From: Faecalibacterium hattorii
GTDB lineage: Bacteria > Bacillota > Clostridia > Oscillospirales > Ruminococcaceae
DNA: 64,000 nucleotides
Assembly (NCBI RefSeq): GCF_003287455.1
Contig: NZ_PRLC01000003.1
Coordinates: 124,001 to 188,000, forward strand
Direction: 5' to 3'
The notes below the pieces were generated by a model. The model ran no database searches. It had not been told where the DNA came from and saw nothing but the letters and a program-made list of their open reading frames with translations. This document shows, in pieces, positions 1,000-23,903 of this stretch (position 1 is its first letter; every line of letters starts with the position of its first letter). Position numbers and translations under genes: made by a program.

Positions 1000-1082
1000 A
1001 ATGCTGTTGCCTCTTTCTTTTTCCAAAGCCCCCGCAAGGGGCCGTCAAGCAATCCGAGCCGCAGAGTGCTGGCTCAAAAATC

Positions 1083-1112
1083 CTTATATTCCTATTATAA
1101 CAAGGCTGTCAA
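1083..1112 (-). promoter_or_regulatory. probable promoter of the CobW-type gene
   Basis: On the minus strand TTGACA (1107-1112) and TATAAG (1083-1088) are separated by 18 bp, about 85 bp upstream of the ATG at 999. No palindrome that I can call a Zur or other metal-regulator site is evident. Confidence 0.5.
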
Positions 1113-1151
1113 TGGGAAAACGCCTTTTTTCATGAGAAAATTGTAACTTTT

Positions 1152-1181
1152 TTGCATCTCCTTCCCCAAATCTGCTATACT
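1152..1181 (+). promoter_or_regulatory. promoter of esterase copy 1
   Basis: TTGCAT (1152-1157) and TATACT (1176-1181) with an 18 bp spacer, 35 bp before the GTG start. The -10 region and the following 30 bp are nearly identical to the promoter of the second esterase copy at 16.68-16.71 kb. Confidence 0.6.
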
Positions 1182-1215
1182 GGGCTTATCAAAATTTTTT
1201 CGGGAGGATGCCGCA

Positions 1216-1899
1216 GTGACTGCACAGATAATGCAAATCGAAAACAAACCTTGCCGTATTTACGGCGAACCCCATGCAGAATACCTACTGCTCCAAATGA
1301 CAGGCGAACACGAGCTGCAAAGCATGGAAAGCGAGGTTACCGCTATTGCACAGAGTGCGCACCGCTTTCTGTTTGCGGCCATTCCAGTGGAAAGCTGGAA
1401 CGATGCACTTTCTCCGTGGGAAGCCCCTGCTGTGTGGGGAAAGCAAGGGTTCGGCGGCAAGGCTGCGGACACGCTAAGCTTTCTGACGGAACAGGTCATT
1501 CCCACGCTGAAGCAGCAGTATCCTCTCCCGAAAAACGTCAAAATCATTCTGGGCGGCTATTCGCTGGCGGGATTGTTTGCGTTGTGGGCATCCACCCAGA
1601 CTGATCTGTTCTACGGTGTCGCCGCCGCCTCGCCCTCTGTTTGGTTTCCGGGTTGGAAGGAGTTTGAACAGCAGCACCCGATACAGGCACAGCGCGTTTA
1701 TCTGAGCCTTGGCGACAAGGAAGAACACACGAAAAACGCCGTCATGGCTGCGGTGGGCGATAACATCCGTGCCCTGCACAGTCGGCTTGCAGAGCGTGGC
1801 GCAGACTGCACCCTTGAATGGAACAGCGGCGGGCATTTCAAAGACGCCGACCTGCGCACGGCGAAAGCCTTTCGGTGGGTGATGGAGGAACACACATGA
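1216..1899 (+). CDS. small alpha/beta-hydrolase esterase, copy 1
   Basis: 227-residue protein with a GYSLAG nucleophile elbow (about residues 111-116) and a C-terminal GGHFKD that probably supplies the catalytic His. This is the pattern of the putative-esterase branch of the alpha/beta-hydrolase fold. There is no signal peptide, so it is probably cytosolic. The start is a GTG, chosen because a GGGAGG ribosome site lies 8 bp upstream and the second copy of the gene uses the same GTG. Its stop overlaps the ATG of a truncated yaiI-like gene by 4 bp (ATGA), which shows the two were once translationally coupled. The paralogue at 16,740-17,423 has the same length and nearly the same sequence. Substrate unknown. 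Confidence 0.85.
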   Translation: MTAQIMQIENKPCRIYGEPHAEYLLLQMTGEHELQSMESEVTAIAQSAHRFLFAAIPVESWNDALSPWEAPAVWGKQGFGGKAADTLSFLTEQVIPTLKQQYPLPKNVKIILGGYSLAGLFALWASTQTDLFYGVAAASPSVWFPGWKEFEQQHPIQAQRVYLSLGDKEEHTKNAVMAAVGDNIRALHSRLAERGADCTLEWNSGGHFKDADLRTAKAFRWVMEEHT

Positions 1900-1931
1900 C
1901 CATTTTGATTGATGCGGATGGCTGCCCTGTT
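1896..1931 (+). pseudogene. 5' stub of YaiI/YqxD (UPF0178) gene
   Basis: The first 12 codons read MTILIDADGCPV, identical in protein to the start of the intact UPF0178 gene at 17,420. After that the similarity stops abruptly and runs into a terminator at 1,960. The rest of the gene is missing. The stub keeps the ATGA overlap with the esterase. It is a deletion remnant beside the tRNA attachment site. Confidence 0.8.
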
Positions 1932-1953
1932 CTCATCCGCACCATCTTGCCGC

Positions 1954-1981
1954 AAAAAAGGCACCAGCCTGAGCCGGTGCC
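1954..1981 (-). terminator. terminator of the tRNA-Ser locus (host copy)
   Basis: On the minus strand a GGCACC...GGTGCC stem (1960-1981) is followed by six T (rc of 1954-1959). It sits directly after the tRNA 3' half and matches a tRNA transcript terminator. Analogous hairpins follow the other two tRNA segments. Confidence 0.65.
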
Positions 1982-1987
1982 TTTTGT

Positions 1988-2046
1988 TGGCGGAGATGGT
2001 GGGATTCGAACCCACGTGCCCGATTAAGGACAAAACGATTTCGAGT
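1988..2046 (-). repeat. left attachment site: 3' half of tRNA-Ser(CGA), 59 bp direct repeat copy 1
   Basis: Read on the minus strand this is the anticodon-loop-to-CCA half of a tRNA-Ser: CTCGAAA loop, TCGTT anticodon-stem half, variable arm, T arm GTGGG-TTCGAAT-CCCAC, acceptor half CATCTCC, G, CCA. The sequence before the loop does not pair, so it is not a whole tRNA. The same 59 bp recurs without a mismatch at 20,516-20,574. The matching 5' half is at 24,145-24,186. This is the outer, left junction of the integrated island. Confidence 0.9.
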
Positions 2047-2375
2047 CTTTGAAATTGTTGGATGAAGCTGGTCCCGCGCGGCCGTCATTGGCAGCTGAGG
2101 GCATTTTTGTAACCTCAAAAAAGGCACGTCACACCGCAATTTGCAGGAAAAAATCAGCCGCTTTTTGCGAAATGACGTTAGAAAAAGCCTTTTTCACACG
2201 GGCCGTCAGCGGCTGCATTTCAGGTGTAGTTGTGTTAGATGTCCGTTAGAAATATGCAGTGCTGCCGTTGCTGTGCCAGCTCACAGCAGGCTTCCCTGTC
2301 TGAACGCAGCGTTTCCCGAAAGCCGGGAGATGCTGCGTTTTCTCTTGCCCGCATTGGGCTGAAAGGGAAGCCGCC
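2047..2375. other. left end of island 1, non-coding, with a strong hairpin
   Basis: No convincing gene. A strong stem (AACGCAGC 2303-2310 with GCTGCGTT 2332-2339, plus an inner TCCCG/CGGGA pairing) is followed by TTTTCTC. It lies 37 bp before the replication-type gene and could be a terminator or attenuator shielding it from read-through across the attachment site. Confidence 0.5.
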
Positions 2376-3257
2376 ATGTCAACATTCCGCGTCAATAAAA
2401 ACGTCAACTACACCGTTATGAGCAACCACCACCTGCAGGATAAGAGGCTGTCCCTGAAGGCCAAGGGACTGCTGTCCTATATGCTCTCCCTGCCGGACGA
2501 TTGGGATTACAGCCTGAAAGGGCTGACCGTTGGTTGCAAGGATGGTCTGGACAGTGTACGCACCGCTGTTCTGGAACTGGAAGAACACGGCTACGTCCGC
2601 CGTCAGAAAGTCCGCAATGCCAAAGGGCAGATCATCGACTACGATTATCAGGTTTATGAATCGCCTGTTGAGGACGCTCCTGCCGTTCCCGGCAAGGAAG
2701 GCGGGCCGTCGGACCCGTCCGCAACCAAAAGCCCGAAAAGCCGCATGAAACCTTGTTCTTCACCATTTTTGGATTTTCCAAATTTGGCTGAGCCCAATTT
2801 GGAAAAGGCAACGCAACAAAATACTAATAAACAAAATACTAAAAGACAAAGTACTAATCTATCAGGGCCGACAGGCGAATCCGCAGATTTTGACCAGATG
2901 GAAGCACAGGTACGGGAGGAGTTCCGGGAACGTTTGGAGATCGACACCCTTGCCCAGAGGTACGACCCCGACAAGCTGGAGGAACTGCTGGACAACATTG
3001 TGGAGATGTACTGCTGTCCTCGGCAGACCCAGTACGTCGGCAAGCAGCCGCAGACCACCAAAGCCATCCGGCTGCGGCTGGACAAGCTGACCAGCCAGCA
3101 CATTGAGTACATCTTCGATGTGATGTCCAACACCACCCAGCCCATCAAGAACATCATGGCCTATCTGCGCACCACCATCCTGAACGCCCCCACCACGATG
3201 GAGCACTACTATCAGGCGCAGGGCAACTGGCTGACCGCACAGAGCCGGAAGGAGTGA
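2376..3257 (+). CDS. replication-initiator-like protein (HTH N-terminus, DUF6017-type C-terminus)
   Basis: 293 residues. The N-terminal 100 residues (STFRVNKNVNYTVMSNHHL, then LSLKAKGLLSYMLSLPDDWDYS) match the winged-helix replisome-organiser type common in Firmicute integrative elements. The middle is low in complexity (Asn/Gln/Thr/Ser). The C-terminal part from about 175 (REEFRERLEIDTLAQRY to NIMAYLRTTILNAPTTMEHYYQ) matches the DUF6017 domain that ends element RepA proteins. It is probably a replication or helicase-loading protein of the island in its excised state. The ATG follows AAAGGGAAG. It is the first gene inside the left attachment site and is followed by a TnpV relic. Confidence 0.75.
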   Translation: MSTFRVNKNVNYTVMSNHHLQDKRLSLKAKGLLSYMLSLPDDWDYSLKGLTVGCKDGLDSVRTAVLELEEHGYVRRQKVRNAKGQIIDYDYQVYESPVEDAPAVPGKEGGPSDPSATKSPKSRMKPCSSPFLDFPNLAEPNLEKATQQNTNKQNTKRQSTNLSGPTGESADFDQMEAQVREEFRERLEIDTLAQRYDPDKLEELLDNIVEMYCCPRQTQYVGKQPQTTKAIRLRLDKLTSQHIEYIFDVMSNTTQPIKNIMAYLRTTILNAPTTMEHYYQAQGNWLTAQSRKE

Positions 3258-3312
3258 ACGCCGTTTTCCACAAAGACCGCAAAACACGTTGAAAATACAA
3301 AGGAGAATTTCC

Positions 3313-3686
3313 ATGAAGAACACGAACGCCGTCCGCACCGAGATCCATTACGCACAGGTTGGGGAGTATCAGCTGCCCCTGCTCACCCTGCCGCAGACCG
3401 ACAGCCGCGAACCTCTGGGCAAGTACGCCCGGATGCGGCTGGCCTACCTCAAAAACCAGCGCCCCGTGCTGTACAACCAAATGCTGCTGAACGGTACGCT
3501 CTGGCCGCATTTGCAGGATGTCCAGAAAACGGCCTGCGCGTGGCTGGAACGCACGATGACCACTCTGTTAGACAAGTACCCGCGCCGGGCAAAGAACACT
3601 CACAGCTTCTCTGGGCGGCCCATATGAACGGGCTGAAAGCGCAGGCGGAGGAGGTAGTGGTGAGGGAAATCGTGTATGCAGAGTGA
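3313..3686 (+). pseudogene. TnpV-like element protein, frameshifted
   Basis: Starts MKNTNAVRTEIHYAQVGEYQLP after AAGGAG, the typical start of TnpV proteins found in Clostridial transposons and conjugative elements. The frame runs out at 3,627 after DKYPRRAK. A shift of one base near 3,584-3,592 restores the family C-terminus (HSQLLWAAHMNGLKAQAEEVVV...) to a stop at 3,684-3,686. So a single-base deletion has probably inactivated it, unless it is a sequencing error. TnpV's biochemical role is unknown. Confidence 0.75.
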
Positions 3687-3845
3687 TTTCAACTGTTTTT
3701 CATGTTTCTGTTTCAGCATCAAAAACGCCTAGACGCGATTTTATGTCTTGATTTTGAATATTTTCCGCAAATATCAATATTAAAATTTGATTTTCTGCCA
3801 AGAATGGAGTATACTGAACCCAGAAAACACTTGGGAGGTTTTGCG

Positions 3846-5030
3846 ATGCTGCTTCAATTTTCTGTCACGAACCACCGTTCCATCAGGGATACCGCCATCA
3901 TCAGCATGAAGGCATCCACAGATAAAAGTCTGTCCGACTGCCTGATTTCGCCGGACGAGAAGAAACAGCTTGTACCTGTACTGGCACTGTACGGCGCAAA
4001 TGCAGCCGGGAAGAGCAATGTTCTCCATGCTCTCCTGCTCATGCGGGAAATGGTCTGTGGCCGATATGCCAAGCTGCTGAAGGGCGAGTCCCTTCCGCAG
4101 GAGCCGTTTGCTTTCACTGACCAGCCCACACAGCCGACCAGCTTTGAAGCCATCTATTTTTATGGCGGCATCAAATATGCCTATGGGTTCTCGTTTGACA
4201 AGTCCAAAGTCCTGACCGAATATCTCTATCACTGGCCGAATGGCCGAGAAGCCTTGATTTTTTCAAGAGAAAACAATGGCTATCAGTTCCGCGAGAATAT
4301 TCAAGAGCAGTTCACGCTTGCTGGACGAACTGCTGAAAATCGCCTTTATCTGTCCAGCTCGAACGAGTGGAACTGCCCCCAGACTGAAAAGGCATATCTG
4401 TGGTTCTTTGAAAAACTGACAGGCTTTATGGGAACCGAAATGCGGCTGGATGCTACATTGTCTGCCATCCGGCAGGGCGGCTCTGAAAAGAGCCGTATCC
4501 TGCATGAAATGCTGTATGCAGACCTCGGTATCAAGGACATCCGCATTACAGGCTCTAAGGAAGAGCCTATCATTTCCGCACTGCACACTCTCGATGCCGA
4601 AGATGGCACTTCTAAGGGTTTCTGGCTCCCGTTGGGTCAGGAATCCGTTGGGACACAGCGTTTCTTCTCTCGCATCGGTATGTGGCTTGCGGCTTTGGAA
4701 TCCGGCTCTGTTTTGGTAGTAGACGAGATAGAATCCAGTATGCACCCGCTGCTGACAAGGCATCTGATCGGAATGGTGCAGGATGCCGCTATCAATACAA
4801 ACCATGCACAACTCATCTTCACAACACACGATACCGGACTTCTCGACCTGACGTTGCTGCGGCGCGATCAGATTTGGTTTGCAGAGAAGAACGAAAAGAC
4901 CATGCAGACCGATATTTACGCCCTGACCGAGTTTTCTCCCCGGAAAGGTGAGAATATCTCCAAAGGGTATCTGCAAGGCCGCTATGGTGCGATTCCGTTC
5001 ATTGGAGGGGATGCAGCATGGGCAGAATAA
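3846..5030 (+). CDS. RloA-type AAA ATPase (AbiLi-like defence protein)
   Basis: 394 residues beginning MLLQFSVTNHRSIRD, the usual start of the AAA_15/RloA ATPases. Walker A is GANAAGKS (50-57). The Walker B region (SVLVVDEIESSMHP) and a switch His (FTTHD) are in the last third. The ATG at 3,846 was preferred over earlier in-frame codons because GGGAGG is 7 bp upstream and the family starts here. It overlaps rloB by 13 bp. RloA/RloB pairs, first noted in restriction loci and equivalent to lactococcal AbiL, abort phage infection. The ATPase is the likely sensor and RloB the likely nuclease. The specific trigger here is unknown. Confidence 0.85.
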   Translation: MLLQFSVTNHRSIRDTAIISMKASTDKSLSDCLISPDEKKQLVPVLALYGANAAGKSNVLHALLLMREMVCGRYAKLLKGESLPQEPFAFTDQPTQPTSFEAIYFYGGIKYAYGFSFDKSKVLTEYLYHWPNGREALIFSRENNGYQFRENIQEQFTLAGRTAENRLYLSSSNEWNCPQTEKAYLWFFEKLTGFMGTEMRLDATLSAIRQGGSEKSRILHEMLYADLGIKDIRITGSKEEPIISALHTLDAEDGTSKGFWLPLGQESVGTQRFFSRIGMWLAALESGSVLVVDEIESSMHPLLTRHLIGMVQDAAINTNHAQLIFTTHDTGLLDLTLLRRDQIWFAEKNEKTMQTDIYALTEFSPRKGENISKGYLQGRYGAIPFIGGDAAWAE

Positions 5031-5641
5031 AAGAGATCAGCCGCAAGTCTGCTCACACCAGAAAGCGCAACCCGGTGGTGTATCTCATCTGTGAGGGCAG
5101 TGAAACCGAGATCCGCTATTTCAAACGTTTCCGCAGCCGAGGGTGCAATATTGATATTATCCCGATTTCTTCTCAGTATAAGTCTGCCGACAGGCTTGTG
5201 CAAAAGGCCAAAGCAACGATGGGCAATAATCCATACTACCCGGAAGATGGTGACTCCATCTGGTGCGTATTTGACCGTGATGATAACTCCAACGAAGTTC
5301 TTCTGCGTGCCAAACAGTCCGCTCAAAAGGAAGGCTATCATTTGGCCTATTCTAACCCATCTTTCGAGTTGTGGTTCCTACTGCACTTTGTAAATCAACA
5401 GGCAGAGGTTGAAGATTGCCAAGCATTGATTCGATTACTGAAACAGCCGGGCAGACTTCCTGATTATGAGAAAAACAAGGATTACTTTGACGTTTTGAAG
5501 CCTTTGCAGGCAACTGCGATTCAGAGAGCGAAAGCTCGTGCTGACCAAGTTCAGAAGCAGGGTCTCGAACCGATTTCACGGCAGAGCAATCCGTTGACAA
5601 CGATTTGGGAACTGGTAGAGTATTTGAACTCCAAGGTTTGA
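5018..5641 (+). CDS. RloB-type Toprim-like protein (AbiLii-like)
   Basis: 207 residues. The RloB signature is present: VYLICEGSETE with E26 and CVFDRDDN with D86 and D88, which form the Toprim-like acidic site expected to bind a metal and cut nucleic acid. SNPSFELWFLLHF, a strongly conserved RloB block, lies at about residues 112-124. The start has GGAGGGG just upstream, inside the end of rloA, so the two are translationally coupled. It is the predicted effector of the RloA/RloB abortive-infection pair. The length is typical. Confidence 0.85.
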   Translation: MGRIKEISRKSAHTRKRNPVVYLICEGSETEIRYFKRFRSRGCNIDIIPISSQYKSADRLVQKAKATMGNNPYYPEDGDSIWCVFDRDDNSNEVLLRAKQSAQKEGYHLAYSNPSFELWFLLHFVNQQAEVEDCQALIRLLKQPGRLPDYEKNKDYFDVLKPLQATAIQRAKARADQVQKQGLEPISRQSNPLTTIWELVEYLNSKV

Positions 5642-5664
5642 ACCACATCACTTGAAAATATAGT

Positions 5665-5707
5665 AAAGCCCACAGACCGGATTTTATATCTGGCCTGTGG
5701 GCTTTTT
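5665..5707 (+). terminator. terminator after rloB
   Basis: AAAGCCCACAG (5665-5675) pairs with CTGTGGGCTTT (5695-5705) and runs into TTTTT. It separates the plus-strand RloA/B pair from the convergent minus-strand operon. Confidence 0.85.
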
Positions 5708-5829
5708 ATGAGGTACAGTATCTATTATTTTCAACCAGAGACTTCTTTTCACTCGGAAAGTTCTTTGTGATTATATAATTATCTCCGCTTCATTATGTAT
5801 ATAAAATTGTGACAACCATACATCATAAA

Positions 5830-6822
5830 TCATTCGAGAGGAACAAGTTCATTCGTTTTCTTTTCAATATTTTGGAACACTTTATAATAGTTATAAATCG
5901 CCGCCCTTAAAGATTCACATTTTTCCATATCATATTCATTTGAACAGCTGTCACATTTCCCATCACAAGATGGTATGCTTCGATTTTTTATGGGATGTAA
6001 TTTTTGATGGCATTTTCCGTACACCAGTTTAGCATGTGCTAATTTATTTCGAGGTTTAATCAACTCATCACTATATTTTTGTGAGAAATCTTCTTGAGCA
6101 ATCGGTCCGTCATCAAAAAATTTCACAATCAACCCCATAAGAGCATAACGATCCTTATTATCCATCACATACTCAACGGATTGAATCGCGTTTTTTATAA
6201 ATGATTTTCCTACTTTTTTGTTTAATCCCTCAAAATTTTGTCCAGATTTAGATGCAGCACTTTCAACATACTCCTTTGCTTTTCGGACAATCACATCCTG
6301 TTGTTCTGAACTTAACTTTTCAAATAACGCTATTGTTGTCGATTGGCAAATATAGTCAAATTCCGAGGTGCTATCCATTATAAGCCCTCTTATATTTGAT
6401 ATACGATACTCTCTTTTTAGATTTTTTTGAACAACACGGCCTATAATTTCCAGAAGATTTGCACGATCGGCCAAGAAAACACCATTCAATTGATCAGAAT
6501 TTTTTAGAGAACTTTCCATGTTTTCCTTGTCGCTTGAATAAAAAACAATATCTGTATAGATTTCCTTGCTGCGAAGTTCGCGTATCACAGCATCACCAGT
6601 TGTACCAGATAGTGCAAAGTCCATAAGAATCAAATCATAAAAATCAAAGGATGTTGCATCAAAATTTTCTAGCTTTTCACTTTTGAACTCATCATAGTCG
6701 CTATAGCTTTCAATGTCTGCATCCATAAAACGGTTTTGAATAGCTTGAACTACAAGTTCTTTTGTTGAGTCAACATAGTCTTCTGCATCATCAATCCACA
6801 GAATTTTATACGTCATATCCAT
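5830..6822 (-). CDS. receiver-domain protein with HEPN-like RNase motif and Cys cluster
   Basis: 330 residues. Residues 1-125 look like a response-regulator receiver: KILWIDDAED (acid pair D11-D12), LILMDFALSG (phosphoacceptor D68) and VFYSSD for the switch Ser/Thr. The usual conserved Lys is not seen (FLADR in its place). There is no DNA-binding output domain. The helical C-terminal region instead has PRNKLAHAK: R258-N-x3-H263 is the RNxxxH catalytic motif of HEPN ribonucleases. It is followed by five Cys (271, 286, 290, 293, 302) that could bind zinc. It is the last gene of a methylase-GHKL-receiver operon, 17 bp after the kinase-like gene. A GTG at 6,831 is an alternative start. Receiver fairly sure; HEPN is inference from the motif. 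Confidence 0.7.
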   Translation of the reverse strand: MDMTYKILWIDDAEDYVDSTKELVVQAIQNRFMDADIESYSDYDEFKSEKLENFDATSFDFYDLILMDFALSGTTGDAVIRELRSKEIYTDIVFYSSDKENMESSLKNSDQLNGVFLADRANLLEIIGRVVQKNLKREYRISNIRGLIMDSTSEFDYICQSTTIALFEKLSSEQQDVIVRKAKEYVESAASKSGQNFEGLNKKVGKSFIKNAIQSVEYVMDNKDRYALMGLIVKFFDDGPIAQEDFSQKYSDELIKPRNKLAHAKLVYGKCHQKLHPIKNRSIPSCDGKCDSCSNEYDMEKCESLRAAIYNYYKVFQNIEKKTNELVPLE

Positions 6823-6839
6823 ATTCTGCACGCTTTCTT

Positions 6840-8879
6840 TTATGGCATTTCAATAATGAACTTTGCTCCAGAGGGTGTTGCATTCTCCGCACAAATGGTT
6901 CCCTTCATTTTTTTGATAACCGTCTTAATATTGTATAAGCCGATTCCTGTTCCACCTGTGTTGCTGAACCCGAAATCAAATATTTCATTTAAATCTACTG
7001 CTCCAAAGCCATCACCATCATCCCATAATTCAATATAGGCTTTCCCCGAAATATCTTCCATCGATAAATTAAAGTTTCTGGCATGGCTTTTTTGTGAATT
7101 AGACAAAAAATTGTCCAAAACAAGAGAAATGTTTTGCGGTTGAAATTTAATTATATGCTGGCCGGAAGTTTCAACAGAAATGTGAATATTGAAATACTGC
7201 TGTTGGAGAACATTCATTAAGTATTCCCGACAAAAAGCAAACAAGTCCTCCTTAATTGAAGCATCTTCAATATTAAATTTAGCAATTGCGCTATATTTCA
7301 ATGAACTTAAAATTTTATCTGTGGCAACCGAGATTGCGCCGAGTTCTCTATAATTTTCAATTCCTATTTTTCTAGCCAAAGTTGTTACACTGTTCCTTAT
7401 CGTTAGGGCGTTCGTCTTTACCAAGTGAGTTTTTGCCGAGAATGTTTTTTGGTCTTCCGTAATCGCGCTAAAAATAGTATAGCTTTGGGCTTTATATTTT
7501 TGAATATTATCAGAAGCGACTTCCAATTTTTTTTCGGTGACACGATTCTTTATCTCTAACTCTTGGCGTGCCGCTTCGGCTGCTTTAAGCGCAGCCTCAT
7601 GCTCTTTTTTTATTTTATCTTCTTCTTCACGAATCTCCTGTCCAACTTTCACACGCTGCACAATCAAAGTGGAAACAATCGGCTTTACCAAACTAATTAA
7701 CAAGGCAACACGTTCATCATCTTCAGCAAACCCCTGTCGATTAGATGTCGCAATATCTCCCAAAGAATTATCGTCTAGTACATCAAAATTGATTTCGCCT
7801 TCTATATAATTCGAAAATGCCTGTGTGTTTTTCAAATACGGCATAAAATCTTCGACAGCAAGTTTTTTTCTCACATAAAGTCTTAATTGTGTGGATTTAT
7901 ATGCCTTATTTTTCAAAAATAATGGATCATTAACTTGTGCATCATCTTTTTTTATGCTGGCATGAATTCCAATCCATCCGGTCAAGCTATACGGAATTTC
8001 TTTTTCCGAAAGAGAACCATCCTCTTTAACAAAATGTCGTGTTCCACTGGTGTTATAGGCTGATTCATCAATAATAACAGTATGTCTTGGTTTTCTTCGA
8101 ACAGTGTCATCCGCAGATGGAAAATAAACGCTTTCGGCTATTCGACTTTTTATATTCGATTCGCTGTTGTCAAAAAGAGCATAGAAATTCCGAAATGCAA
8201 TATTTTTTGCTACTTCTTGAAATCCAATTGGCGTATTTTTTTGATACCTAACAGCTAATTCGATTTTTCCGGATATAGAATCCAGAACATAATAATCCGA
8301 AAGTCTAGCCTTTAGCCCTTCAATTGACTGAATTCCAATGTTTGTCAGGTCAACATTTTTAAGCTTTATCATCGTTCCAGAAGTAAGCTTATCCCAGTAT
8401 TCTGCTGACAAAACTTCAACTTGAGAAAGATTAACTCTATTTAACGATGGTATCTCAGACTCGCGCTCGTTGCTCATATCAAAATACCATGCGGATTCTT
8501 GTCCGGCAGATTTTGATATAAGATAATATTTACTAGATAAATATAAAGCTGCGAGTTTTCCGATTCCCTTTCGCCCCATAACTTTGTTCTTTGAAACTTC
8601 ATCTAGCGAAAGGTCTTCTCGTTTGTTTTTTCCAATTAAAACATATTTTTCTGCAAGATCTGAATATGTCATTCCTGTACCATTATCGAAAATTTCTATC
8701 TCAGAGTTTTTCTTGTCACTCATGTCGATAAAAATTCGTACACAGGTTGCCTTAGCATCAAGTCCATTAGCAACAAGCTCCGCTATTGCTGTCCATGGAT
8801 TTGAGTATAATCCCTTGCCTAACAGTTTAAGTGCAAAGTACGAGAAATTGAAAAAGATTTTATCATTGGTATTGTCCAT
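6840..8879 (-). CDS. double-GHKL ATPase / sensor-kinase-like protein
   Basis: 679 residues with two GHKL ATP-binding modules. The N-terminal one resembles MutL/MORC/Hsp90: ELVANGLDA (34-42, Mg-binding N38), DNGTGM (65-70) and GRKGIGKLA (102-110). A long middle region (about 120-410) is followed by a charged coiled coil (EEDKIKKEHEAALKAAEAAR, about 420-460). The C-terminal module is histidine-kinase-like: LVLDNFLSNSQ (N box), DDGDGFG (620-626) and GGTGIGLYN (642-650). Candidate phosphoacceptor histidines lie before it (for example SAKTHLVK) but no textbook H-box is evident. The next gene is a receiver, so phosphotransfer is plausible. Ten bases separate it from the upstream methylase. AT-rich compared with the flanking chromosome. 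Confidence 0.78.
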   Translation of the reverse strand: MDNTNDKIFFNFSYFALKLLGKGLYSNPWTAIAELVANGLDAKATCVRIFIDMSDKKNSEIEIFDNGTGMTYSDLAEKYVLIGKNKREDLSLDEVSKNKVMGRKGIGKLAALYLSSKYYLISKSAGQESAWYFDMSNERESEIPSLNRVNLSQVEVLSAEYWDKLTSGTMIKLKNVDLTNIGIQSIEGLKARLSDYYVLDSISGKIELAVRYQKNTPIGFQEVAKNIAFRNFYALFDNSESNIKSRIAESVYFPSADDTVRRKPRHTVIIDESAYNTSGTRHFVKEDGSLSEKEIPYSLTGWIGIHASIKKDDAQVNDPLFLKNKAYKSTQLRLYVRKKLAVEDFMPYLKNTQAFSNYIEGEINFDVLDDNSLGDIATSNRQGFAEDDERVALLISLVKPIVSTLIVQRVKVGQEIREEEDKIKKEHEAALKAAEAARQELEIKNRVTEKKLEVASDNIQKYKAQSYTIFSAITEDQKTFSAKTHLVKTNALTIRNSVTTLARKIGIENYRELGAISVATDKILSSLKYSAIAKFNIEDASIKEDLFAFCREYLMNVLQQQYFNIHISVETSGQHIIKFQPQNISLVLDNFLSNSQKSHARNFNLSMEDISGKAYIELWDDGDGFGAVDLNEIFDFGFSNTGGTGIGLYNIKTVIKKMKGTICAENATPSGAKFIIEMP

Positions 8880-8889
8880 TGATTTTACC

Positions 8890-10116
8890 TCATTTCAGAG
8901 TTTTCTCAAATTGTGATGCTAGTCGTAAAGCCAGCAATGGAGGAACAGCATTCCCGATTTGTGTACAAACATCCGATTTGAATCCCTCAAACTTGTACCA
9001 ATCTGGGAATGATTGTATTCTCGCTCCTTCGCGTGGAGTTAATGCACGATTTTGGCTATAATGAATACATCTCAAACTAGAAACAGTTGTCAAATTGTTG
9101 GTTATCGTAGGTGATGGTTGATCCGCTATTAAACGTCCATAAGTATTCGCATAGCCAGATGTTAGCCTATAAGATTTATCGATTTTACCAGAATCAACCA
9201 ATGCATTAAATTCATTTTTTCCTTCGCCCTGCTTCACATGTTGTATAACAGCTCTGATTTTTTCACTATAACACCCACAGAAGTGTTGCGTTAGTTCATT
9301 TGACCCATGTCGCATGAGTTCTTGATACTTATTCTGTGGTAGCTGCTGATAAGAACTTATGCTTTGTCCTTCTAAAACTTCTGGAAGATCGGATATTGCA
9401 TCCTTTATAGTAAGGTGCGCAGACTTTTCTTTTGGAGGACAGTTCCATTTTAAATTCAAGTCGTTTCGGATGCCTACAATGAAGACCCTTTCTCTATTTT
9501 CAGGAACTCCATAGTCCATAGCATTCAATCGTTCCGTCCAAATGTTATAGCCCAAACCATTTCCAAGATTTGAAAACTGATCATTTAAAATCTCCATAAC
9601 AGATTTACCATAATGATCTATAACAGGCTTTTTTCGCGGCGTTAACGACTCTCTGCCCTCAACATCTTTTAATTCATACAAGATATTTCCAGCTGCATCT
9701 CTTTTATAGAATATTTCTCTCATCGATAAAATGCCTCGGACATTTTCAAACAAGAACATTTTTGGACGAGCAATTTTTAACACTCTCAAATATTCCGTAT
9801 ACAGTTGTGCTTTTTCGTCGTAATTTCGTTGTCCAACGGTACTAAAAGACTGGCATGGTGGTCCACCAATTATCAAATCAACTGGTTCCGATCCAATCCA
9901 TTTTCTTATGTCACTTTCTTTCAAGGACTTTATATCGCAGTTTTTCATAGGAATATCAGGATAATTTTCAGAGTATGCTTTAGCTGCAAACGGATTGTAT
10001 TCATTTGCAAAAACGAATTGATTTTTTCGATTCCTGACAAAATGGTCTTTGTATTTTCTATAATAAAATCCAAATGTTAGTCCTCCAACTCCAGAGAACA
10101 GGTCAATTATTCTCAT
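8890..10116 (-). CDS. DNA (cytosine-5) methyltransferase
   Basis: 408 residues from MRIIDLFSGVGG (AAAGGA upstream; a TTG at 10,146 could add ten residues). All main C5-methylase motifs are visible: I FSGVGG (7-12), IV GGPPCQSF with catalytic C88, VI ENVRG (E124), VIII PENRERVFIVG, IX/X RALTPREGARIQSFP and QIGNAVPP. It should methylate cytosine in a specific DNA site. It heads a three-gene operon with the GHKL protein and receiver-HEPN protein, and no partner endonuclease of a standard type II system is visible. Its role may be self-marking for that operon. AT-rich, apparently acquired. Confidence 0.93.
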   Translation of the reverse strand: MRIIDLFSGVGGLTFGFYYRKYKDHFVRNRKNQFVFANEYNPFAAKAYSENYPDIPMKNCDIKSLKESDIRKWIGSEPVDLIIGGPPCQSFSTVGQRNYDEKAQLYTEYLRVLKIARPKMFLFENVRGILSMREIFYKRDAAGNILYELKDVEGRESLTPRKKPVIDHYGKSVMEILNDQFSNLGNGLGYNIWTERLNAMDYGVPENRERVFIVGIRNDLNLKWNCPPKEKSAHLTIKDAISDLPEVLEGQSISSYQQLPQNKYQELMRHGSNELTQHFCGCYSEKIRAVIQHVKQGEGKNEFNALVDSGKIDKSYRLTSGYANTYGRLIADQPSPTITNNLTTVSSLRCIHYSQNRALTPREGARIQSFPDWYKFEGFKSDVCTQIGNAVPPLLALRLASQFEKTLK

Positions 10117-10330: not shown

Positions 10331-12955
10331 TCACAACGCCCTCAACAGCGTCAAAAACTCATCAAAGCGATATGCACCCTCCATCTGCAAGTCTTTGTTC
10401 TGGAACACCATATAATAGCGGTATGCCTGCTTGCCAGCGGCATCCTGCCATGCACGACCCAGACGAATTTTTTCTCTGGACTCTGCATTTTCCAGCTGGT
10501 CGCCTTTGGTTTCAATCAGAATAATCTTTCCGCTGGTCGTGCGAACGATAAAATCCGGGTAATGGTTGCGGAATCCGTTCAAACAGAACGAAAACTTGTT
10601 ACGCTCCGGGTTGCGATGCCACCAGCGGATATTGTCCATGTTGGTCATTGCCAGAGCCATTTTATATTCCAGACCATCCATCTTGCCCTCGGTCTGGTAC
10701 AGGCTCTTGCTCATTGAAGAAGTGCTATCCGGGAGGGTGATATACTCCGTCAACTGAAAGCGGGGTTCACATACGATTTTCTCCGTTTCCAGCCACTTGT
10801 AGAAGTTTTCTCGTGCAGTTTCCTCTTGAAGCTGCATGACGTATGCACGAATTTTTGCTGCAAAGTTAACAGGCATCCGTTCCAGCGCGTCCAGCTCTTC
10901 GCGGTTCATATTATCCACGATACCATCGACATAACGCCGCAGTTCATTATCATCCACCGCGTTCATCTTGCAAAGGCTCTTGTGGATAATATCCTTGCAG
11001 ATACGCAGTTTATCCTCGCCCGGAAGCAGTGGAAACTGCCTGTTCATGTACTGCTGATAATCATCTTTCAGCTTGGAGATACGCGGTGTCGTGGTATCGC
11101 GGTCTTCCAAATCGACCTGCGCCAAATCGTCGTCCAGATGGCCGAAGTCGATTGCGCTGGGTTTTCCTTTCAGAGAAAAATCCAAAAGCAGCTGGGCTTT
11201 ATCCAGCTCCGTTTTCCCTTCCGGATCTAAAAGGCTTGGCAACGTTTTTAAGTAGAATTTCGGCAATTTAAGGGTGCGCACATCTTCCAGAAATTCTGGA
11301 TTTACATGGGAAACATCCACTTTGTCCTGCACCTCCAGCGGCAAATCGCTCAACGGGTCATTCTGGTGCTGCTGCATAGCAACATCAAAATCGTTCTGTT
11401 CCTTTTCAGAGCGGTCAAAAATATTCTGCACCGAGGGAGAAACACTTGCCTTTGCCAAAGTGTTGCCCAACAGTGTCGGGTCAAAATCCAAAAACTCTTC
11501 TTCCGCCGATGCCGCAGGCATTGCTTCGTTTGTCGGCTGTGCCGGGAAGATGGTCTGCTCCACTTTGGGCAGCGGCTCGACCGGGGCAGCTTCTTCCTGC
11601 ACACGGTAATCGTGGTCCGTGAAGCCTGCGTTATTCAAGCCCTTGACGATGCCGTCCAGCGTACGCTTGAAGTCCGCAGACGAGGTCAGAACATACGAAG
11701 TATTCAGGATCGGAGAAGAATGTTTCCGGGTATAGGGCAGGCGCAGAATACGCCCCACGATTTGCTCCACATCCACCTGACTGGTGCGGTTCGCCAGCGA
11801 AGCAAGGATATACGCAAAGGGGCAGTCCCAACCCTCTTTCAAGGCATTGACTGTAATGATAAAGCGAATCGAACACTTTTCCGACAGCAAGTCCACATTT
11901 TTCAACTCGTTGATTTCCGCCGTCTTGATGGCAATTTGCTCTGCTGGAATGTTGGCAGTAATCAGGCGTTGGCGCAGTTTTTCAAAAGTCGTTGCATTTT
12001 CTGTGCTCTTGGGTTGCGCCTGAAACAGCACGATGGGGCGAATGTAGCTGCCACCCTTTTCGTAGGCATCTTTTGCGTGAATTTCCAGTGTCCGCTGCAT
12101 CTCGATGGCATCATGCAGCACATCCTGCTGGCTGTTGCGGTTCATCACAATGACAGGCAACTTGACCATGTTCTCGCGTTTCAAGTGAATCGCATCCACA
12201 ATGGAGATGATGTTGCTTTCCTTAGTGGGCGTTGCCGTCAGATCCAGCACAAAGCAGGGATTGAAGTTTTGCAGCATCTGCTTGCTCGGGTTACTGCGCG
12301 CATGGTGGCTTTCGTCCACAATGACCAGCGGATGCAGCTGATTAATGACCTGCATCAAGGCGGTCGGGTCGGTATCTTCCAGCGGCATATCAGGTTCGCC
12401 CAGTGCATTTGCCAGCGCAACAAGGCTGCTGTTCTCCTGCTTGGCCTTGAGCCGCTCCTTCTTGCCACGGAACGAATCGTAAGACAGCACCATGATGGAA
12501 AGCTGCTCGTTGACCGTAGAGATATTGAAGTGCTGCCCCATCAAAAGCTGTTCTTTGGTATACACTTCTACACGGCTGCCAAAGGCAACATCAATTTTCT
12601 GGCGGTAAGGATGTGCAGGGTCACGCAATGCAGCCAAGGTTTGGGTCAGGATAGCATCTGACGGAACCAGCCAAACCACTGCACGGCGTTTTACCACACC
12701 CAGTGCGGAGAAAATCGGCTCGATGGCATTTGCAGCCAAAAATGTTTTGCCGCCGCCCGTAGGAACTTTCAGGCAGACATTTGGCACACCAGGCAGAAGA
12801 TTCTGATACTTGGGCATTCCGCCAAATCCGACTTTTACATCTTTCTCCTGCCAGAGCCGAGTATAGGCCGTTTCGATGTTCTTTGTCTGCATCAGGATTT
12901 CCAGATAGCGTTCCAAATCCCGAATGACGGCTTTCTGATATTTTTTCAATTCCAT
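10331..12955 (-). CDS. type III restriction enzyme Res subunit
   Basis: 874 residues. SF2 helicase motor: Walker A VPTGGGKT (64-71), DESH box (214-217), LTATP motif III and a C-terminal VGRILRLPY motif VI. The endonuclease module is at the extreme C-terminus: YPDFIVR (D801) followed by LIETKGD (E815, K817), a PD-(D/E)xK site. It translocates on and cuts DNA lacking the cognate Mod methylation, together with Mod. It is the last gene of the mod - AAA-DUF4435 - res operon. Base composition is more GC-rich than the gene directly upstream. Confidence 0.93.
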   Translation of the reverse strand: MELKKYQKAVIRDLERYLEILMQTKNIETAYTRLWQEKDVKVGFGGMPKYQNLLPGVPNVCLKVPTGGGKTFLAANAIEPIFSALGVVKRRAVVWLVPSDAILTQTLAALRDPAHPYRQKIDVAFGSRVEVYTKEQLLMGQHFNISTVNEQLSIMVLSYDSFRGKKERLKAKQENSSLVALANALGEPDMPLEDTDPTALMQVINQLHPLVIVDESHHARSNPSKQMLQNFNPCFVLDLTATPTKESNIISIVDAIHLKRENMVKLPVIVMNRNSQQDVLHDAIEMQRTLEIHAKDAYEKGGSYIRPIVLFQAQPKSTENATTFEKLRQRLITANIPAEQIAIKTAEINELKNVDLLSEKCSIRFIITVNALKEGWDCPFAYILASLANRTSQVDVEQIVGRILRLPYTRKHSSPILNTSYVLTSSADFKRTLDGIVKGLNNAGFTDHDYRVQEEAAPVEPLPKVEQTIFPAQPTNEAMPAASAEEEFLDFDPTLLGNTLAKASVSPSVQNIFDRSEKEQNDFDVAMQQHQNDPLSDLPLEVQDKVDVSHVNPEFLEDVRTLKLPKFYLKTLPSLLDPEGKTELDKAQLLLDFSLKGKPSAIDFGHLDDDLAQVDLEDRDTTTPRISKLKDDYQQYMNRQFPLLPGEDKLRICKDIIHKSLCKMNAVDDNELRRYVDGIVDNMNREELDALERMPVNFAAKIRAYVMQLQEETARENFYKWLETEKIVCEPRFQLTEYITLPDSTSSMSKSLYQTEGKMDGLEYKMALAMTNMDNIRWWHRNPERNKFSFCLNGFRNHYPDFIVRTTSGKIILIETKGDQLENAESREKIRLGRAWQDAAGKQAYRYYMVFQNKDLQMEGAYRFDEFLTLLRAL

Positions 12956-12958
12956 AAT

Positions 12959-12992
12959 ACGGCTACTCTCTTATCACGGCTACTCTCTTATC
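12959..12992. repeat. 17 bp perfect tandem duplication at the AAA-DUF4435/res junction
   Basis: Two adjacent identical 17 bp units (12959-12975 and 12976-12992) lie between the stop of the AAA-DUF4435 gene and the res ATG and cover the stop codon. They carry the GAGAG that may serve as the res ribosome site. The unit may mark the junction where the AAA gene was inserted. Confidence 0.85.
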
Positions 12993-14595
12993 GTGGAATC
13001 TCAGGTGGCAGATAATTTGAAAGCGCATCTGAAATCTCCCTGCGTAACGCTCCATTCAACAAAACCAGTACTTTATTACAGTATTCTTTGTTTTCAATTT
13101 TTAGGAAATGTCCAATTGAGATTATCAGCCCTTTTTCATTAAACACTCTCAATATCTTTGCGTAATCACCATCATCCAGTACACTTTGAAACCTTGTCTT
13201 TTCCTCATCTCTTACTCTATCGTAGTCAATCGATTCTAACGCAGTGTCTAAGCTATGTTTAAGTTCATCATTATTTTTTGACGACAACTCAATCGATGCT
13301 AATTGATATTTCAAATGCGCAACTGTGCTTTGACAAATCTGCCGCTCTTTTTGACTAGAAAAGCGTGCATGGATGGATTTACTGATTTCATCAAAACACC
13401 TATCAGGATCCATTGCAAACCGCTCCGCCATCAGTCGAATTAATTCTTCCACTAAAAATAGATTTTCAACTTCGGCCACTTCAAGAGTATAAATATTTTC
13501 CTTTTTATATTTTTGAATCTCATAATCGGATCGATAGTCTCTATCAATAAGCCCATATACTTCGCAGTGGTGTAACGAAGGGCAATTGCGGAATGCCTTT
13601 GTCCTTGCAATAACACGTGTACAGCTCCCACAAGCAATCACATAATAATTGGGGTATAAAATAGTGTACAATTGGGTATCATAACTATTTTTCTCACCCT
13701 CGACAAATAATACATTCTTTCGACTTCCTAAAATATCAAAAAGTAATTCCTCTGGAAGGTCATTACTCTCCAATTTTTGAAGTTTCCAATGCTCCCCATT
13801 AAATTCTTTGATCCAGATTTTATCTGCATTTCCATGTGCGGCAGCAAATTGCGTATCATGCGTGATATAAATAAACAAGCAATCCTGTCGATATCTTTCT
13901 AATGCATTCCAGAGTCGATTCATAATAGACCGATTAAGATGCACTTCTGGCTCATCAATAATCAGTGTTTTATTCTGTGGGACACAAAGCACCTGTGCAG
14001 CTAGATAAAGTACGGCTCTTTCGCCATCACTCATTTGAGTAGAACTATATTCAACAGTTTTCCCCTCTTTGTCAAAGTATGCAATAAACTTTGAGTCTAC
14101 AACCTTTAGATTTCTTTGCGGAAAAATTTCATTCCAAATTAAGATCAATTTATCAATTGCTGTTAATGGCGGTTCTGGATAAGATTCCTTATTTGTTGCA
14201 GCTTTACATTCCTGTGCAAATTTATCATTATCATTATTTTTGAGTGCAATAATCGCTGCGAGAACATCATCAAAATCATTTAAAAGTTGCGTAGTAAAAT
14301 TTCCCCATCCCCATCGATATCCTTTATTTCTATCGTGCTTTCCACTTGCATCGTCTGTGCCAAAAAGCACAAAATCCTCGGCCTGAGAATAACTTTTAAG
14401 CGGAATGTTTTCTTTGAAATTAAGATTTCGTTGAGCGCCAATGCGATGGATATTGCTCATGTTCTGTTGCTCAATCCATGCACCAAGCTTGCTCTTTCCT
14501 GACCCGTTCGCACCAATGATGATAACCGAATTCGATGCCGCTTTATTTTCTGTTTTGTTTCCATTTTCATCTGGAAGCCAGTATGTGAAGTCCAT
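12988..14595 (-). CDS. AAA ATPase-DUF4435 fusion (PARIS-like) inside the type III R-M operon
   Basis: 535 residues. ATPase half: Walker A GANGSGKSK (28-36), signature SDGERAVLY (189-197), Walker B LIIDEPEVHL (D214, E215) and switch H246 in YITHDT. The second half begins NVLFVEGEKN (about 295-303) and has YGLIDRDYRS (D351, D353), the Toprim-like DUF4435 pattern. AAA plus DUF4435 is the composition of the anti-phage PARIS system (AriA/AriB), here as one polypeptide. PARIS reacts to phage anti-restriction proteins, which fits its place between mod and res. It starts right after mod with AAGGAG overlapping the mod stop. AT-rich relative to mod and res, so it probably has a separate origin. The PARIS comparison is inference. 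Confidence 0.82.
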   Translation of the reverse strand: MDFTYWLPDENGNKTENKAASNSVIIIGANGSGKSKLGAWIEQQNMSNIHRIGAQRNLNFKENIPLKSYSQAEDFVLFGTDDASGKHDRNKGYRWGWGNFTTQLLNDFDDVLAAIIALKNNDNDKFAQECKAATNKESYPEPPLTAIDKLILIWNEIFPQRNLKVVDSKFIAYFDKEGKTVEYSSTQMSDGERAVLYLAAQVLCVPQNKTLIIDEPEVHLNRSIMNRLWNALERYRQDCLFIYITHDTQFAAAHGNADKIWIKEFNGEHWKLQKLESNDLPEELLFDILGSRKNVLFVEGEKNSYDTQLYTILYPNYYVIACGSCTRVIARTKAFRNCPSLHHCEVYGLIDRDYRSDYEIQKYKKENIYTLEVAEVENLFLVEELIRLMAERFAMDPDRCFDEISKSIHARFSSQKERQICQSTVAHLKYQLASIELSSKNNDELKHSLDTALESIDYDRVRDEEKTRFQSVLDDGDYAKILRVFNEKGLIISIGHFLKIENKEYCNKVLVLLNGALRREISDALSNYLPPEIPR

Positions 14596-14609
14596 AATCT
14601 TTTTTCTCC

Positions 14610-16415
14610 TTACACCCGCGCAATGTCGCGCGGAATTTTCTTAAACGTAATACCAAACCGCAGCAAGTCACTCTCACTCAATGCACAGCGGTCAGCATAA
14701 ATCAGATAGTTTTCCGCTTTTTCCTGGATGGTAGACAAAAAAGCATAGTCCAACACGCATATCTGGTCTGGCTCATAGTAGAAATAGTAAGCGGTGTGGT
14801 TGTTCTCACCGAGAAAATATGGGCTTTCGTTCTGTTGATTCACCGCAGGTTTCTTCGTTTCCGTATACCAGATGTAGTCACGGATTTTGTCTGTGCCGAT
14901 GCTTTCATTCAGGTTGCCATCCGGCAGAAGCAGCCGCTCGCCCAGTTCGTAGTAACTGAAATTGCCACCAGTGCCATCTACTTTATCACTTGCTTTATTG
15001 ATTGCCGTTACTTTAAGGTGTCCATCAATAATTTGGGGGGCTTTTACCGTCGAATACGCCGACTTTGCTTCTTTAGCAACAGCTTTCGCTTCTTCTAGTA
15101 GTGTTGCACCCTCCGCAAGGTTTTTTGTGGTAATTTCTTTGTCATATAAGACAGCTTCACTATCTGTTTTATAACCCGTTATTATATGTTTTACCCTCTC
15201 TGCCGTAATGGTATCTGCATAATTTTCCATTTCAACTAGAATAAATTTGCGATGACCCCCATCCATTTTATTCATGTTCAATACTGCATGGGCAGTTGTT
15301 CCAGAACCTGCAAACGAATCTAATACGATAACATCCGGGTCAGAAATCATTTGGAGGATACGTTCTATCAGCTCATGCGGCTTAGGTGTGCTAAATATGT
15401 CTGTCACTCCAAAAATGGATTTCAAAAAAGCTTTTGCTTGTCGCATGGTTGCAAGGTCATTCCAAATCGTCGGGTAAGGGCGTGATGGATTTTGGGGTGC
15501 ATACTCGCGCGAGTAAGGCTCCCAAACCTCTTTTCCCATTCGATTTCTACGTTTCCAGACTAGTGTTCCTGCGGCAATATGTTTGGCAATTCCATCCTTT
15601 CCCATCGCCCATCGAGCTTCTTCGCCATTATCATGAATAGGATAGACCTCGGAACCATCTGGTGCGATTATCGGAAAGTACATAGTTGGTCTATCTGTGC
15701 GCAAACTATTTCTACCATTTTTCTTTACCAAACGATCCCTGTACCGTCGCCCTTGCTCATCTACAAACCCATAAGCATTAACAATTCCAGGTGCTTCCAG
15801 TTGCTTGAACTTTTTTAAGCTTGGATTCTTTCCATAGAGAAGGATGTACTCATGATCTGGCGTAATAGGAACTTTGTTATCGTTTGGGCTATCAACTTTT
15901 CGCCAAATAAATGTTGCTATAAAATTTGATGCGCCAAAAATCTCGTTGCAAATCAATCGAAGATTCGCAAATTCAATATCACTAATACTAATGAAAATCG
16001 CACCGTCATCTGCCAGAAGCTTTTGCAGAAGCATCAGCCGAGGATACATCATACAGAGCCACTTGTCATGGCGTGTCAAATCTTCGCCTTCTTTGCCAAC
16101 CGGCTGGCCTTTGAGTGTTTCTTGTAGCCATCTCTGAATGCGAGGATCGTTGACATTATCGTTATAGCACCACTTTTCTTCGCCAGTGTTGTAAGGAGGA
16201 TCGATGTAGATGCACTTCACCCGGCCCTCATACTGCGGCAGCAGAGCTTTCAGGGCTTCCAGATTATCGCCGTGGATAATCATGTTATCACTGCCGTTGT
16301 CCTCGGTGTGCTTGCCCATTTCGTCAAAGCTATACTGACGCTCCAACACACGGAACGGCACTTCCTGATGATGATTGACAACTTTGCTTTTTCCGATCCA
16401 TTCCAAAGTAGGCAT
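14610..16415 (-). CDS. type III Mod-type adenine methyltransferase
   Basis: 601 residues from MPTLEWIGKSKVVNHH, the usual family start; the frame is open 77 codons further upstream but that part is not conserved-looking. Catalytic motif DPPY at 72-75 precedes the AdoMet-binding DSFAGSGT (366-373), the beta-class order expected of type III Mod. The region between (about 170-340) is the likely target-recognition domain. It methylates one strand of an asymmetric site and recruits Res. First gene of the operon; GGAGA lies upstream of the ATG. Confidence 0.92.
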   Translation of the reverse strand: MPTLEWIGKSKVVNHHQEVPFRVLERQYSFDEMGKHTEDNGSDNMIIHGDNLEALKALLPQYEGRVKCIYIDPPYNTGEEKWCYNDNVNDPRIQRWLQETLKGQPVGKEGEDLTRHDKWLCMMYPRLMLLQKLLADDGAIFISISDIEFANLRLICNEIFGASNFIATFIWRKVDSPNDNKVPITPDHEYILLYGKNPSLKKFKQLEAPGIVNAYGFVDEQGRRYRDRLVKKNGRNSLRTDRPTMYFPIIAPDGSEVYPIHDNGEEARWAMGKDGIAKHIAAGTLVWKRRNRMGKEVWEPYSREYAPQNPSRPYPTIWNDLATMRQAKAFLKSIFGVTDIFSTPKPHELIERILQMISDPDVIVLDSFAGSGTTAHAVLNMNKMDGGHRKFILVEMENYADTITAERVKHIITGYKTDSEAVLYDKEITTKNLAEGATLLEEAKAVAKEAKSAYSTVKAPQIIDGHLKVTAINKASDKVDGTGGNFSYYELGERLLLPDGNLNESIGTDKIRDYIWYTETKKPAVNQQNESPYFLGENNHTAYYFYYEPDQICVLDYAFLSTIQEKAENYLIYADRCALSESDLLRFGITFKKIPRDIARV

Positions 16416-19142: not shown

Positions 19143-19159
19143 CCCAAAGGAGGTTTATG

Positions 19160-20407: not shown

Positions 20408-20479
20408 TTATGGATTTATCGTTCATGCATAAAGCATACTGTGATGAGGCAAAAGCGGTCTTTCTCTGCTTGATGCAAA

Positions 20480-20514
20480 AGAAAAAGTCGCAGATTCGTT
20501 TGAATCTGCGACTT
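20480..20514 (-). terminator. terminator next to the inner tRNA 3' half
   Basis: AAGTCGCAGATTC (20485-20497) pairs with GAATCTGCGACTT (20502-20514). On the minus strand it is followed by TTTTTC. It starts two bases after the CCA of the tRNA 3' half, so the island supplied a terminator along with the tRNA half. It may also end integrase transcription on the plus strand. Confidence 0.8.
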
Positions 20515-20515
20515 C

Positions 20516-22241: not shown

Positions 22242-22306
22242 AAAAGCCCTGAAATGCAGTCTGGCATTGGATCGGGAGAATATGAACCCAGAAAGGGGGA
22301 ATCTGT

Positions 22307-23899: not shown

Positions 23900-23903
23900 G
23901 ATT

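Follow-up and report, generated by a model that had tools for sequence, protein, structure and literature searches.

A conserved operon of a cytosine methyltransferase, a double-GHKL kinase and a receiver protein with a predicted HEPN domain in Faecalibacterium hattorii: a candidate signalling branch of restriction-modification

The window analysed here comprises 64,000 nucleotides of Faecalibacterium hattorii (contig NZ_PRLC01000003.1, positions 124,001 to 188,000) and contains, at 5830–10116, three closely spaced genes on the minus strand. They encode a C5 cytosine DNA methyltransferase, a protein with two GHKL ATPase domains and a receiver protein with a HEPN-like C-terminus (Table 1), and are separated by 10 bp (methyltransferase and kinase) and 17 bp (kinase and receiver gene). 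Coordinates, strand and open reading frames (ORFs) are those of an original prediction, which had been drawn from the sequence alone and proposed a defence operon; the full-length methylase it described is borne out by Pfam. A GTG at 6831 offers a possible upstream start for the receiver gene. The residue encoded at 6822 aligns with the start methionine in 37 of 37 rows of the receiver alignment, in which for L030 and L062 the matching start was picked over an earlier one, and the ATG at 6822 is the start favoured by relatives. If translation begins there, the residue numbers D11, D12, D68, R258 and H263 are correct, and all five residues lie where they had been predicted.

Table 1. Features of the operon, followed by those of its surroundings (positions in the window).
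Feature	Position	Strand	Basis or remark
C5 cytosine DNA methyltransferase, 408 residues	10116-8890	minus	Pfam DNA_methylase 1e-63; TIGR00675 dcm 1.8e-57; PADLOC MTase_II 1.5e-97
Double-GHKL sensor kinase, 679 residues	8879-6840	minus	HATPase_c_3 + HATPase_c
N-terminal GHKL/MutL-MORC-type ATPase front end (residues 1-412)	7644-8879	minus	NF050001 1.9e-51 over 16-411
Codon of H485, predicted phospho-acceptor His	7425-7427	minus	invariant in 36/36 full-length proteins
C-terminal histidine-kinase ATPase domain (residues 583-679)	6843-7133	minus	HATPase_c 5e-20
Receiver-HEPN effector (HEPN part predicted), 330 residues	6822-5830	minus	from ATG 6822
Receiver domain (residues 1-139)	6406-6822	minus	VIA-align to ComE receiver 4mld_B
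Codon of D68, predicted phospho-acceptor Asp	6619-6621	minus	D in 37/37
HEPN-like C-terminal domain (residues 140-330)	5833-6405	minus	weak Pfam HEPN matches; VIA-align 4nqf, 8pe3
RNxxxH motif, R258-H263 (RNKLAH in the window)	6034-6051	minus	R, H in 37/37
Cys-rich insertion C271...C302, possible zinc site	5917-6012	minus	model confidence about 59-65
AbiLi + AbiLii gene pair	3702-5641	plus	PADLOC 5.6e-93 and 1.8e-28; convergent with the operon
Fused PARIS-like AriAB gene	12988-14595	minus	PADLOC 4.2e-167 over almost full length
Type III restriction-modification system	methylase 14610-16646, restriction gene 10331-12955	minus	PADLOC
Two integrase-like ORFs	19106-20407 and 22613-23815		read by eye as tyrosine integrases
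tRNA-Ser	23904-23995

Anatomy of the operon and conservation of the trio are well supported. Within a class sample of 391 genomes, a search with the receiver gave 22 matches at E ≤ 0.001. Five of them, the own genome included, reached E 1e-20 or better, and in each of the four other genomes a methylase and a kinase gene precede the receiver gene, ordered as in the window. The other 17 matches (4e-6 to 1e-3), which involve the receiver half and frames of 227–266 residues, were taken unexamined as ordinary response regulators. A scan of a named bacterial genome collection with the five-row alignment, by means of two short receiver-domain patterns and confirmation on the whole protein, yielded 40 loci, of which 36 were kept. 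L066–L069, with no or merely short local receiver matches and lacking the HEPN motif, were dropped before counting. Four of the kept loci (L035, L046, L047 and L054) are seeds of the query alignment found again, leaving 32 of 36 as new. Several are near-copies, and 22 of 34 loci remain at less than 60% receiver identity; this 34-locus set omits L039, L052 and L056, where kinase or methylase is cut. The kinase gene is directly upstream of the receiver gene in all 36 relatives (in L039 just as a fragment, the contig starting inside the kinase), and the methylase precedes the kinase in 35 of them, the exception being L039; the methylases of L052 and L056 are cut by contig ends. The longest frames of kinase and receiver gene overlap by 4 bases in 23/36. 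The co-occurrence of the three genes elsewhere, to which the original prediction had been tied, is thereby established.

By record titles, the relatives belong to Bacillota, Bacteroidota, Spirochaetota, Ignavibacteriota and Verrucomicrobiota. On the receiver tree the phylum label changes 4 times for Bacillota (12.6 when shuffled) and 3 times for Bacteroidota (11.4 when shuffled), which is far below the shuffled values but above one and therefore suggests that transfer between phyla has occurred to some extent. The sole partner of the window in this tree is L030 (Oscillospiraceae), which is 51% identical to it; the two share a long, well-supported branch. Within the phylum and genus sampled the receiver family is sparse: one of 31 genomes of the genus carries the operon, namely the own genome, and the own genome was likewise the only one among 398 of the phylum sample to be found by the five-row profile at E ≤ 1e-8. 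A tblastn search with the window receiver gave no match in plasmid or phage records, one with a Paenibacillus relative gave none in plasmids, and a scan of viral_contigs with a single receiver protein gave none. With the 37-row alignment, the viral_contigs scan returned one match, L104. This viral contig (IMGVR_UViG_2857266821_000007) holds a copy of the operon at 814–6918, in which the methylase and receiver-HEPN frames are open and the kinase is split into two frames, with a 494-residue ORF on the opposite strand between them.

The kinase combines two ATPase domains of different type, as had been predicted. Its N-terminus matches Pfam HATPase_c_3 (residues 28–148, 2.8e-25) and belongs to the MORC/MutL-like GHKL proteins, and its C-terminus is a kinase-like HATPase_c domain. 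Both domains, with a His-bearing helix between them, occur in 36 of 36 kinases. The residues of the front-end ATP site (N38, D65, G67, G69, G105 and G107) are kept in 36/36 kinases, and the same holds for those of the kinase core (N590, N594, K597, G622, G624, G645 and G647) in the 36 full-length proteins. With the canonical His and ATP boxes in place and a phospho-acceptor-like histidine, the kinase core appears intact.

The N-terminal half of the receiver protein aligns to the receiver of ComE by VIA-align with Z 14.4 and a root-mean-square deviation (r.m.s.d.) of 2.2 over 126 residues. Its match to Pfam Response_reg (8.6e-5, 23.1 bits) lies under the cut-off of 30.2. Across the alignment of 37 receivers, a serine occupies the position of the usual threonine and the first acidic position is D or E in every row. 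Two deviations count against a canonical receiver: asparagine takes the second acidic position in 9/37, and the usual lysine is absent, the conserved residue after strand 5 being, as judged from the alignment, a nearby arginine in 34/37 and a glycine in 3/37. Since lysine and second acidic residue are not kept, the five-residue canonical set is incomplete, and by the strict definition in the accessible part of PMC12632262 these proteins are pseudo-receivers that keep the aspartate. Such a protein might be controlled by the kinase core without a phosphoryl group being passed to D68, either through direct binding or through clamping that depends on ATP. This alternative, which has the lysine position, the nine asparagines and the published definition on its side, is unlikely, because the invariance of D68 and of the serine (37/37), together with that of H485 (36/36), would be hard to explain without phosphotransfer. 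As these residues are kept and yet the lysine and the second acidic residue deviate, phosphotransfer from the kinase to D68 is likely but not certain.

In place of a DNA-binding domain, the original prediction had assigned the C-terminal half of the receiver protein to the HEPN ribonucleases on the basis of an RNxxxH motif. This motif is kept in all homologues: R258 and H263 are invariant (37/37), and position 259 holds asparagine in 35 of the 37 proteins and aspartate in the other two. Mean column identity of the alignment is 34%, yet D68, R258 and H263 do not vary; the C-terminal half has just four invariant columns, two of which are the R and H of the motif. The neighbouring cysteine cluster, also part of the original prediction, is real, but as a cluster it is common only to the window and its nearest relative L030. 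When 37 C-terminal pieces were compared with Pfam at E ≤ 10, the four families with the highest member counts were HEPN families, i.e. HEPN_MAE_28990 (6), HEPN_RiboL-PSP (5, best 7e-4), HEPN_Apea (4) and HEPN_Swt1 (3, best 3.7e-4), with Abi_2 (2) among those tied fifth. AlphaFold models are confident (pLDDT 86.8 for the whole receiver protein and 86.2 for the C-terminus). With VIA-align, for which candidates were drawn from Foldseek, the best compact matches of the C-terminus are the HEPN protein 4nqf (Z 6.9, r.m.s.d. 3.3, 99 residues aligned) and Csm6' 8pe3 (Z 6.6, r.m.s.d. 3.5, 101 residues aligned), Csm6 proteins being carriers of a HEPN domain; AbiV follows with Z 3.5. Two ciliary microtubule proteins rank higher (Z 7.7 and 7.2) and were set aside for their r.m.s.d. 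of 14.5.

Several results weigh against the HEPN assignment. The C-terminal piece of the window itself matches none of the named HEPN families at E ≤ 10, none of the 37 whole receiver proteins matches any HEPN family at E ≤ 0.001, and the receiver proteins of the window, L030 and L035 have no PADLOC match at E ≤ 0.01. Foldseek with the C-terminus placed no HEPN protein among its best 50 rows (best E 1.1, lambda repressor), and at a Z of 6.9 helical bundles may resemble one another in arrangement only. A profile of the C-terminus, compared with the sequences of solved structures, found weak, unrelated proteins only. The domain might accordingly be a generic helical bundle in which RNxxxH is structural or binds a metal, as the absence of a significant Foldseek match and the weakness of the Pfam matches (best 3.7e-4 in pieces) would allow. 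Four HEPN families at the top of the Pfam counts, two HEPN structures as best compact fold matches and a motif kept in 37/37 make this very unlikely. Structural evidence for a HEPN fold is moderate and the motif is strong; taken together, they support a HEPN-like C-terminus fairly well.

The front end of the kinase relates the operon to restriction enzymes. Its match to the BbrUII/HgiDII family NF050001, a family accompanied by C5 methylases, covers some 400 N-terminal residues, and that of the L030 kinase extends over residues 30–471. Among eight other kinases, seven match NF050001 only in the first ~230 residues, and L063 does not match at E ≤ 1e-6. Unlike in BbrUII and HgiDII, the C-terminus of the window protein is a kinase core, and the NF050001 score of this protein, 175.4 bits, is far below the cut-off of 550 bits. 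At another locus, L103 (genome G262, 3326–6654), a methylase 51% identical to that of the window stands beside a GHKL protein that is 44% identical to the window kinase over the first ~410 residues and has a TIR-like end (Pfam TIR_2 0.003, below cut-off; PADLOC SpbK 1.7e-12 and ThsB1 1.8e-6). The 9.5 kb examined there yielded no relative of the window receiver. Further, more distant GHKL genes of the class have nuclease-like, TIR-like or kinase C-termini, as read partly by eye. Because methylase and ATPase front end are also found with a TIR end, they look like a portable sensor cassette.

Pairwise comparison of the loci points in the same direction. Median identities of the window to the other 33 loci are 0.21 for the front end and 0.33 for the methylase (overall medians 0.45 and 0.54), and 0.25 for both receiver and kinase core (overall 0.26 and 0.27). 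Front end and methylase of the window are distant, receiver and kinase core typical. Most simply, a single lineage swapped methylase and front end together while retaining kinase core and receiver-HEPN protein. Over the 34 loci, distances of receiver and kinase core correlate with r 0.945, the highest value of the tested pairs, and with 0.83–0.95 in all subsets, in each of which this pair again ranks first among those compared. Methylase and front end were considered as a second tight pair and rejected: their r drops from 0.864 to 0.773 without the window and L030, and under the same omission front end and kinase core reach 0.928, above methylase and front end. The link between methylase and front end reflects one front-end exchange and is not a general rule, and receiver and kinase core are kept as the only robust co-evolving pair.

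The layout of the operon resembles elements described by Bellieny-Rabelo et al. in 2021 (PMC8011034), in which HATPase_c_3 + HEF_HK + HATPase_c proteins are paired with Response_reg_2 and often lie downstream of C5 methylases, according to the accessible part of that paper. Both share an upstream methylase, a protein with HATPase_c_3, H-box and HATPase_c, an adjacent regulator-like gene and neighbourhoods of restriction-modification (R-M) genes. The overall layout is thus already published, with other domain families, and the novelty claimed for the combination, which the original prediction did not recognise as a named system, becomes smaller. What stands is the difference in families and the HEPN-like end of the receiver, the part of PMC8011034 at hand making no mention of HEPN for its elements. 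Response_reg_2 (PF19192) was found in 0/37 receivers and HEF_HK (PF19191) in 0/36 kinases at E ≤ 0.001. At E ≤ 1, PF19192 is absent from the best 25 of 75 families listed and so occurs in at most 1/37 receivers; PF19191 is absent from the best 25 of 61 families listed and does not match the window kinase. The PF19192 model is part of the library used and does find other proteins. Seven Response_reg_2 proteins from Bacteroidota genomes are 525–575 residues long, with R-x4-6-H scattered in four and absent in three. The receiver profiles do not find these seven significantly (best E 0.011 and 0.051); six of the seven kinases beside them match the profile of the window-family kinases at E < 1e-6. 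By eye, the Response_reg_2 proteins (L071–L077) have a common C-terminal Cys-Asp-Cys/Ser stretch.

For their elements, the authors of PMC8011034 propose a two-component system tied to R-M, with signalling cascades controlling R-M systems, as far as the available text shows. The operon might correspondingly be a non-lethal two-component system that tunes local R-M genes, with the HEPN-like domain binding RNA or a partner; a DNA-binding domain would be unnecessary if RNA were the target. We regard this as distinctly unlikely, given that the invariant R and H of the motif (37/37) argue for catalysis and that the conserved trio includes no separate restriction enzyme gene.

Other known systems share single aspects with the operon. 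To our knowledge, Detocs systems contain neither a methylase nor a MORC-type front end. Like the operon, these 'defence two-component systems' employ two-component parts in defence with an enzyme effector, which is an ATP nucleosidase according to the parts of PMC9966839 and PMC10952713 consulted. The paraMORC GHKL proteins of R-M systems (Iyer et al. 2008, PMC2292703) have, in the accessible description, a GHKL front end beside cytosine methylases and interchangeable effector ends, TIR and nuclease domains including a TIR-fused paraMORC4. There the effector is mostly fused, whereas in the window it is a separate protein addressed via kinase and receiver. Similarly, the Ymh-type HEPN domains that Anantharaman et al. 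(2013, PMC3710099) describe as joined to paraMORC ATPases near R-M genes unite a GHKL sensor, a HEPN effector and an R-M context, but by direct fusion and with no kinase or receiver in the portion of the description available. In VcSduA (GHKL-Shedu, paraMORC3), anti-phage activity was lost when the GHKL domain carried a mutation designed to stop it hydrolysing ATP, so that a GHKL ATPase domain is needed by an anti-phage nuclease; unlike here, this is one protein with a PD-(D/E)xK nuclease output (PMC12137116, from the accessible text). HATPase and REC both appear among the domain labels that DefensePredictor (PMC13092281) gives in a legend to its predicted systems. A relay from a GHKL kinase to a receiver-HEPN effector was not found among the matches listed by searches of the open-licence PMC literature, a scope that excludes subscription papers and preprints.

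Around the operon, PADLOC identifies AbiLi/AbiLii-like genes, a type III R-M pair and a PARIS-like AriAB gene, in agreement with the predicted defence-rich island. The fused AriAB gene lies between the methylase and restriction genes of the type III R-M system (10331–16646), and the presence of two integrase-like ORFs beside tRNA-Ser (19106–23995) suggests that an integrative element occupies this tRNA site. The G+C content of the operon is 0.35–0.37, compared with 0.45 and 0.50 in the flanking 1.5-kb segments and 0.40–0.58 across the remaining first 30 kb. We read the region as an acquired defence island. A promoter scan was uninformative (24 sites, 16.8 expected) and a terminator scan found none. 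At other loci, the setting supports a role in defence in part only: three of nine hand-picked flanking proteins match PADLOC at E ≤ 1e-5 (two type II restriction-like and one mad3-like), but six do not, which tells against it. Seven loci (L038, L045, L050, L052, L056, L057 and L060) have one or two extra C5 methylase genes at most two ORFs downstream of the trio, and L042 and L045 have a type II restriction-like gene downstream.

The presence of a methylase and a lethal-looking effector in one operon would also fit a selfish addiction module, which mainly senses lost methylation of the host's own chromosome after operon loss and lets the HEPN protein kill cured cells, phage defence being a by-product. 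The low G+C content and the occurrence in 1/31 genomes of the genus suggest a recent acquisition, as this explanation would have it. However, the operon sits among other defence genes and not alone, and the effector proteins would need to outlast the methylase. An addiction module has a rather small chance of being the correct explanation.

The balance leans narrowly towards an R-M-derived defence operon whose output is signalling and not cutting. For this operon we infer a role in phage defence that would involve methylation as a self mark, phosphotransfer and ribonuclease activity. The methyltransferase would mark a sequence in the host chromosome as self, and the front end, a relative of the HgiDII type, would survey DNA and close on foreign or unmodified DNA. 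Closure may drive autophosphorylation of H485 in the kinase core, from which the phosphoryl group would pass to D68 of the receiver. The phosphorylated receiver may then allow the HEPN domain to assemble into an active dimer, in which R258 and H263 would cut cellular RNA and thereby arrest the infected cell. Support for such a defence relay comes from the trio being kept in one order and on one strand, in a set of loci found from the receiver alone. The invariant residues of receiver and kinase, the HEPN families and structures among the matches of the C-terminus, the correlation of receiver and kinase-core distances, the TIR end on a related front end, the surrounding island and the VcSduA mutant also speak for it.

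Whether the operon represents a distinct branch of R-M-derived immunity is a more tentative proposal, judged to fall a little short of an even chance. In such a branch a His-Asp relay to a HEPN ribonuclease would take the place of the restriction step, and a cassette of methylase and GHKL surveyor would serve at least two outputs, TIR in L103 and kinase plus receiver-HEPN in the window and L030; more distant front ends appear to carry nuclease-like ends. Methylation-based self recognition is normally coupled to DNA cutting. If the proposed relay is true, signal transduction would replace DNA cleavage while methylation remains the self mark, and one recognition step would feed a phosphorelay and a ribonuclease, uniting restriction-modification, two-component signalling and abortive infection. 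It would also suggest an output for the published, unexplained methylase-linked two-component-like elements. With clear point mutants (H485, D68, R258/H263 and the PCQ motif of the methylase), the trio would be a tractable means of finding out to which signals the MORC-like GHKL ATPases of bacteria respond.

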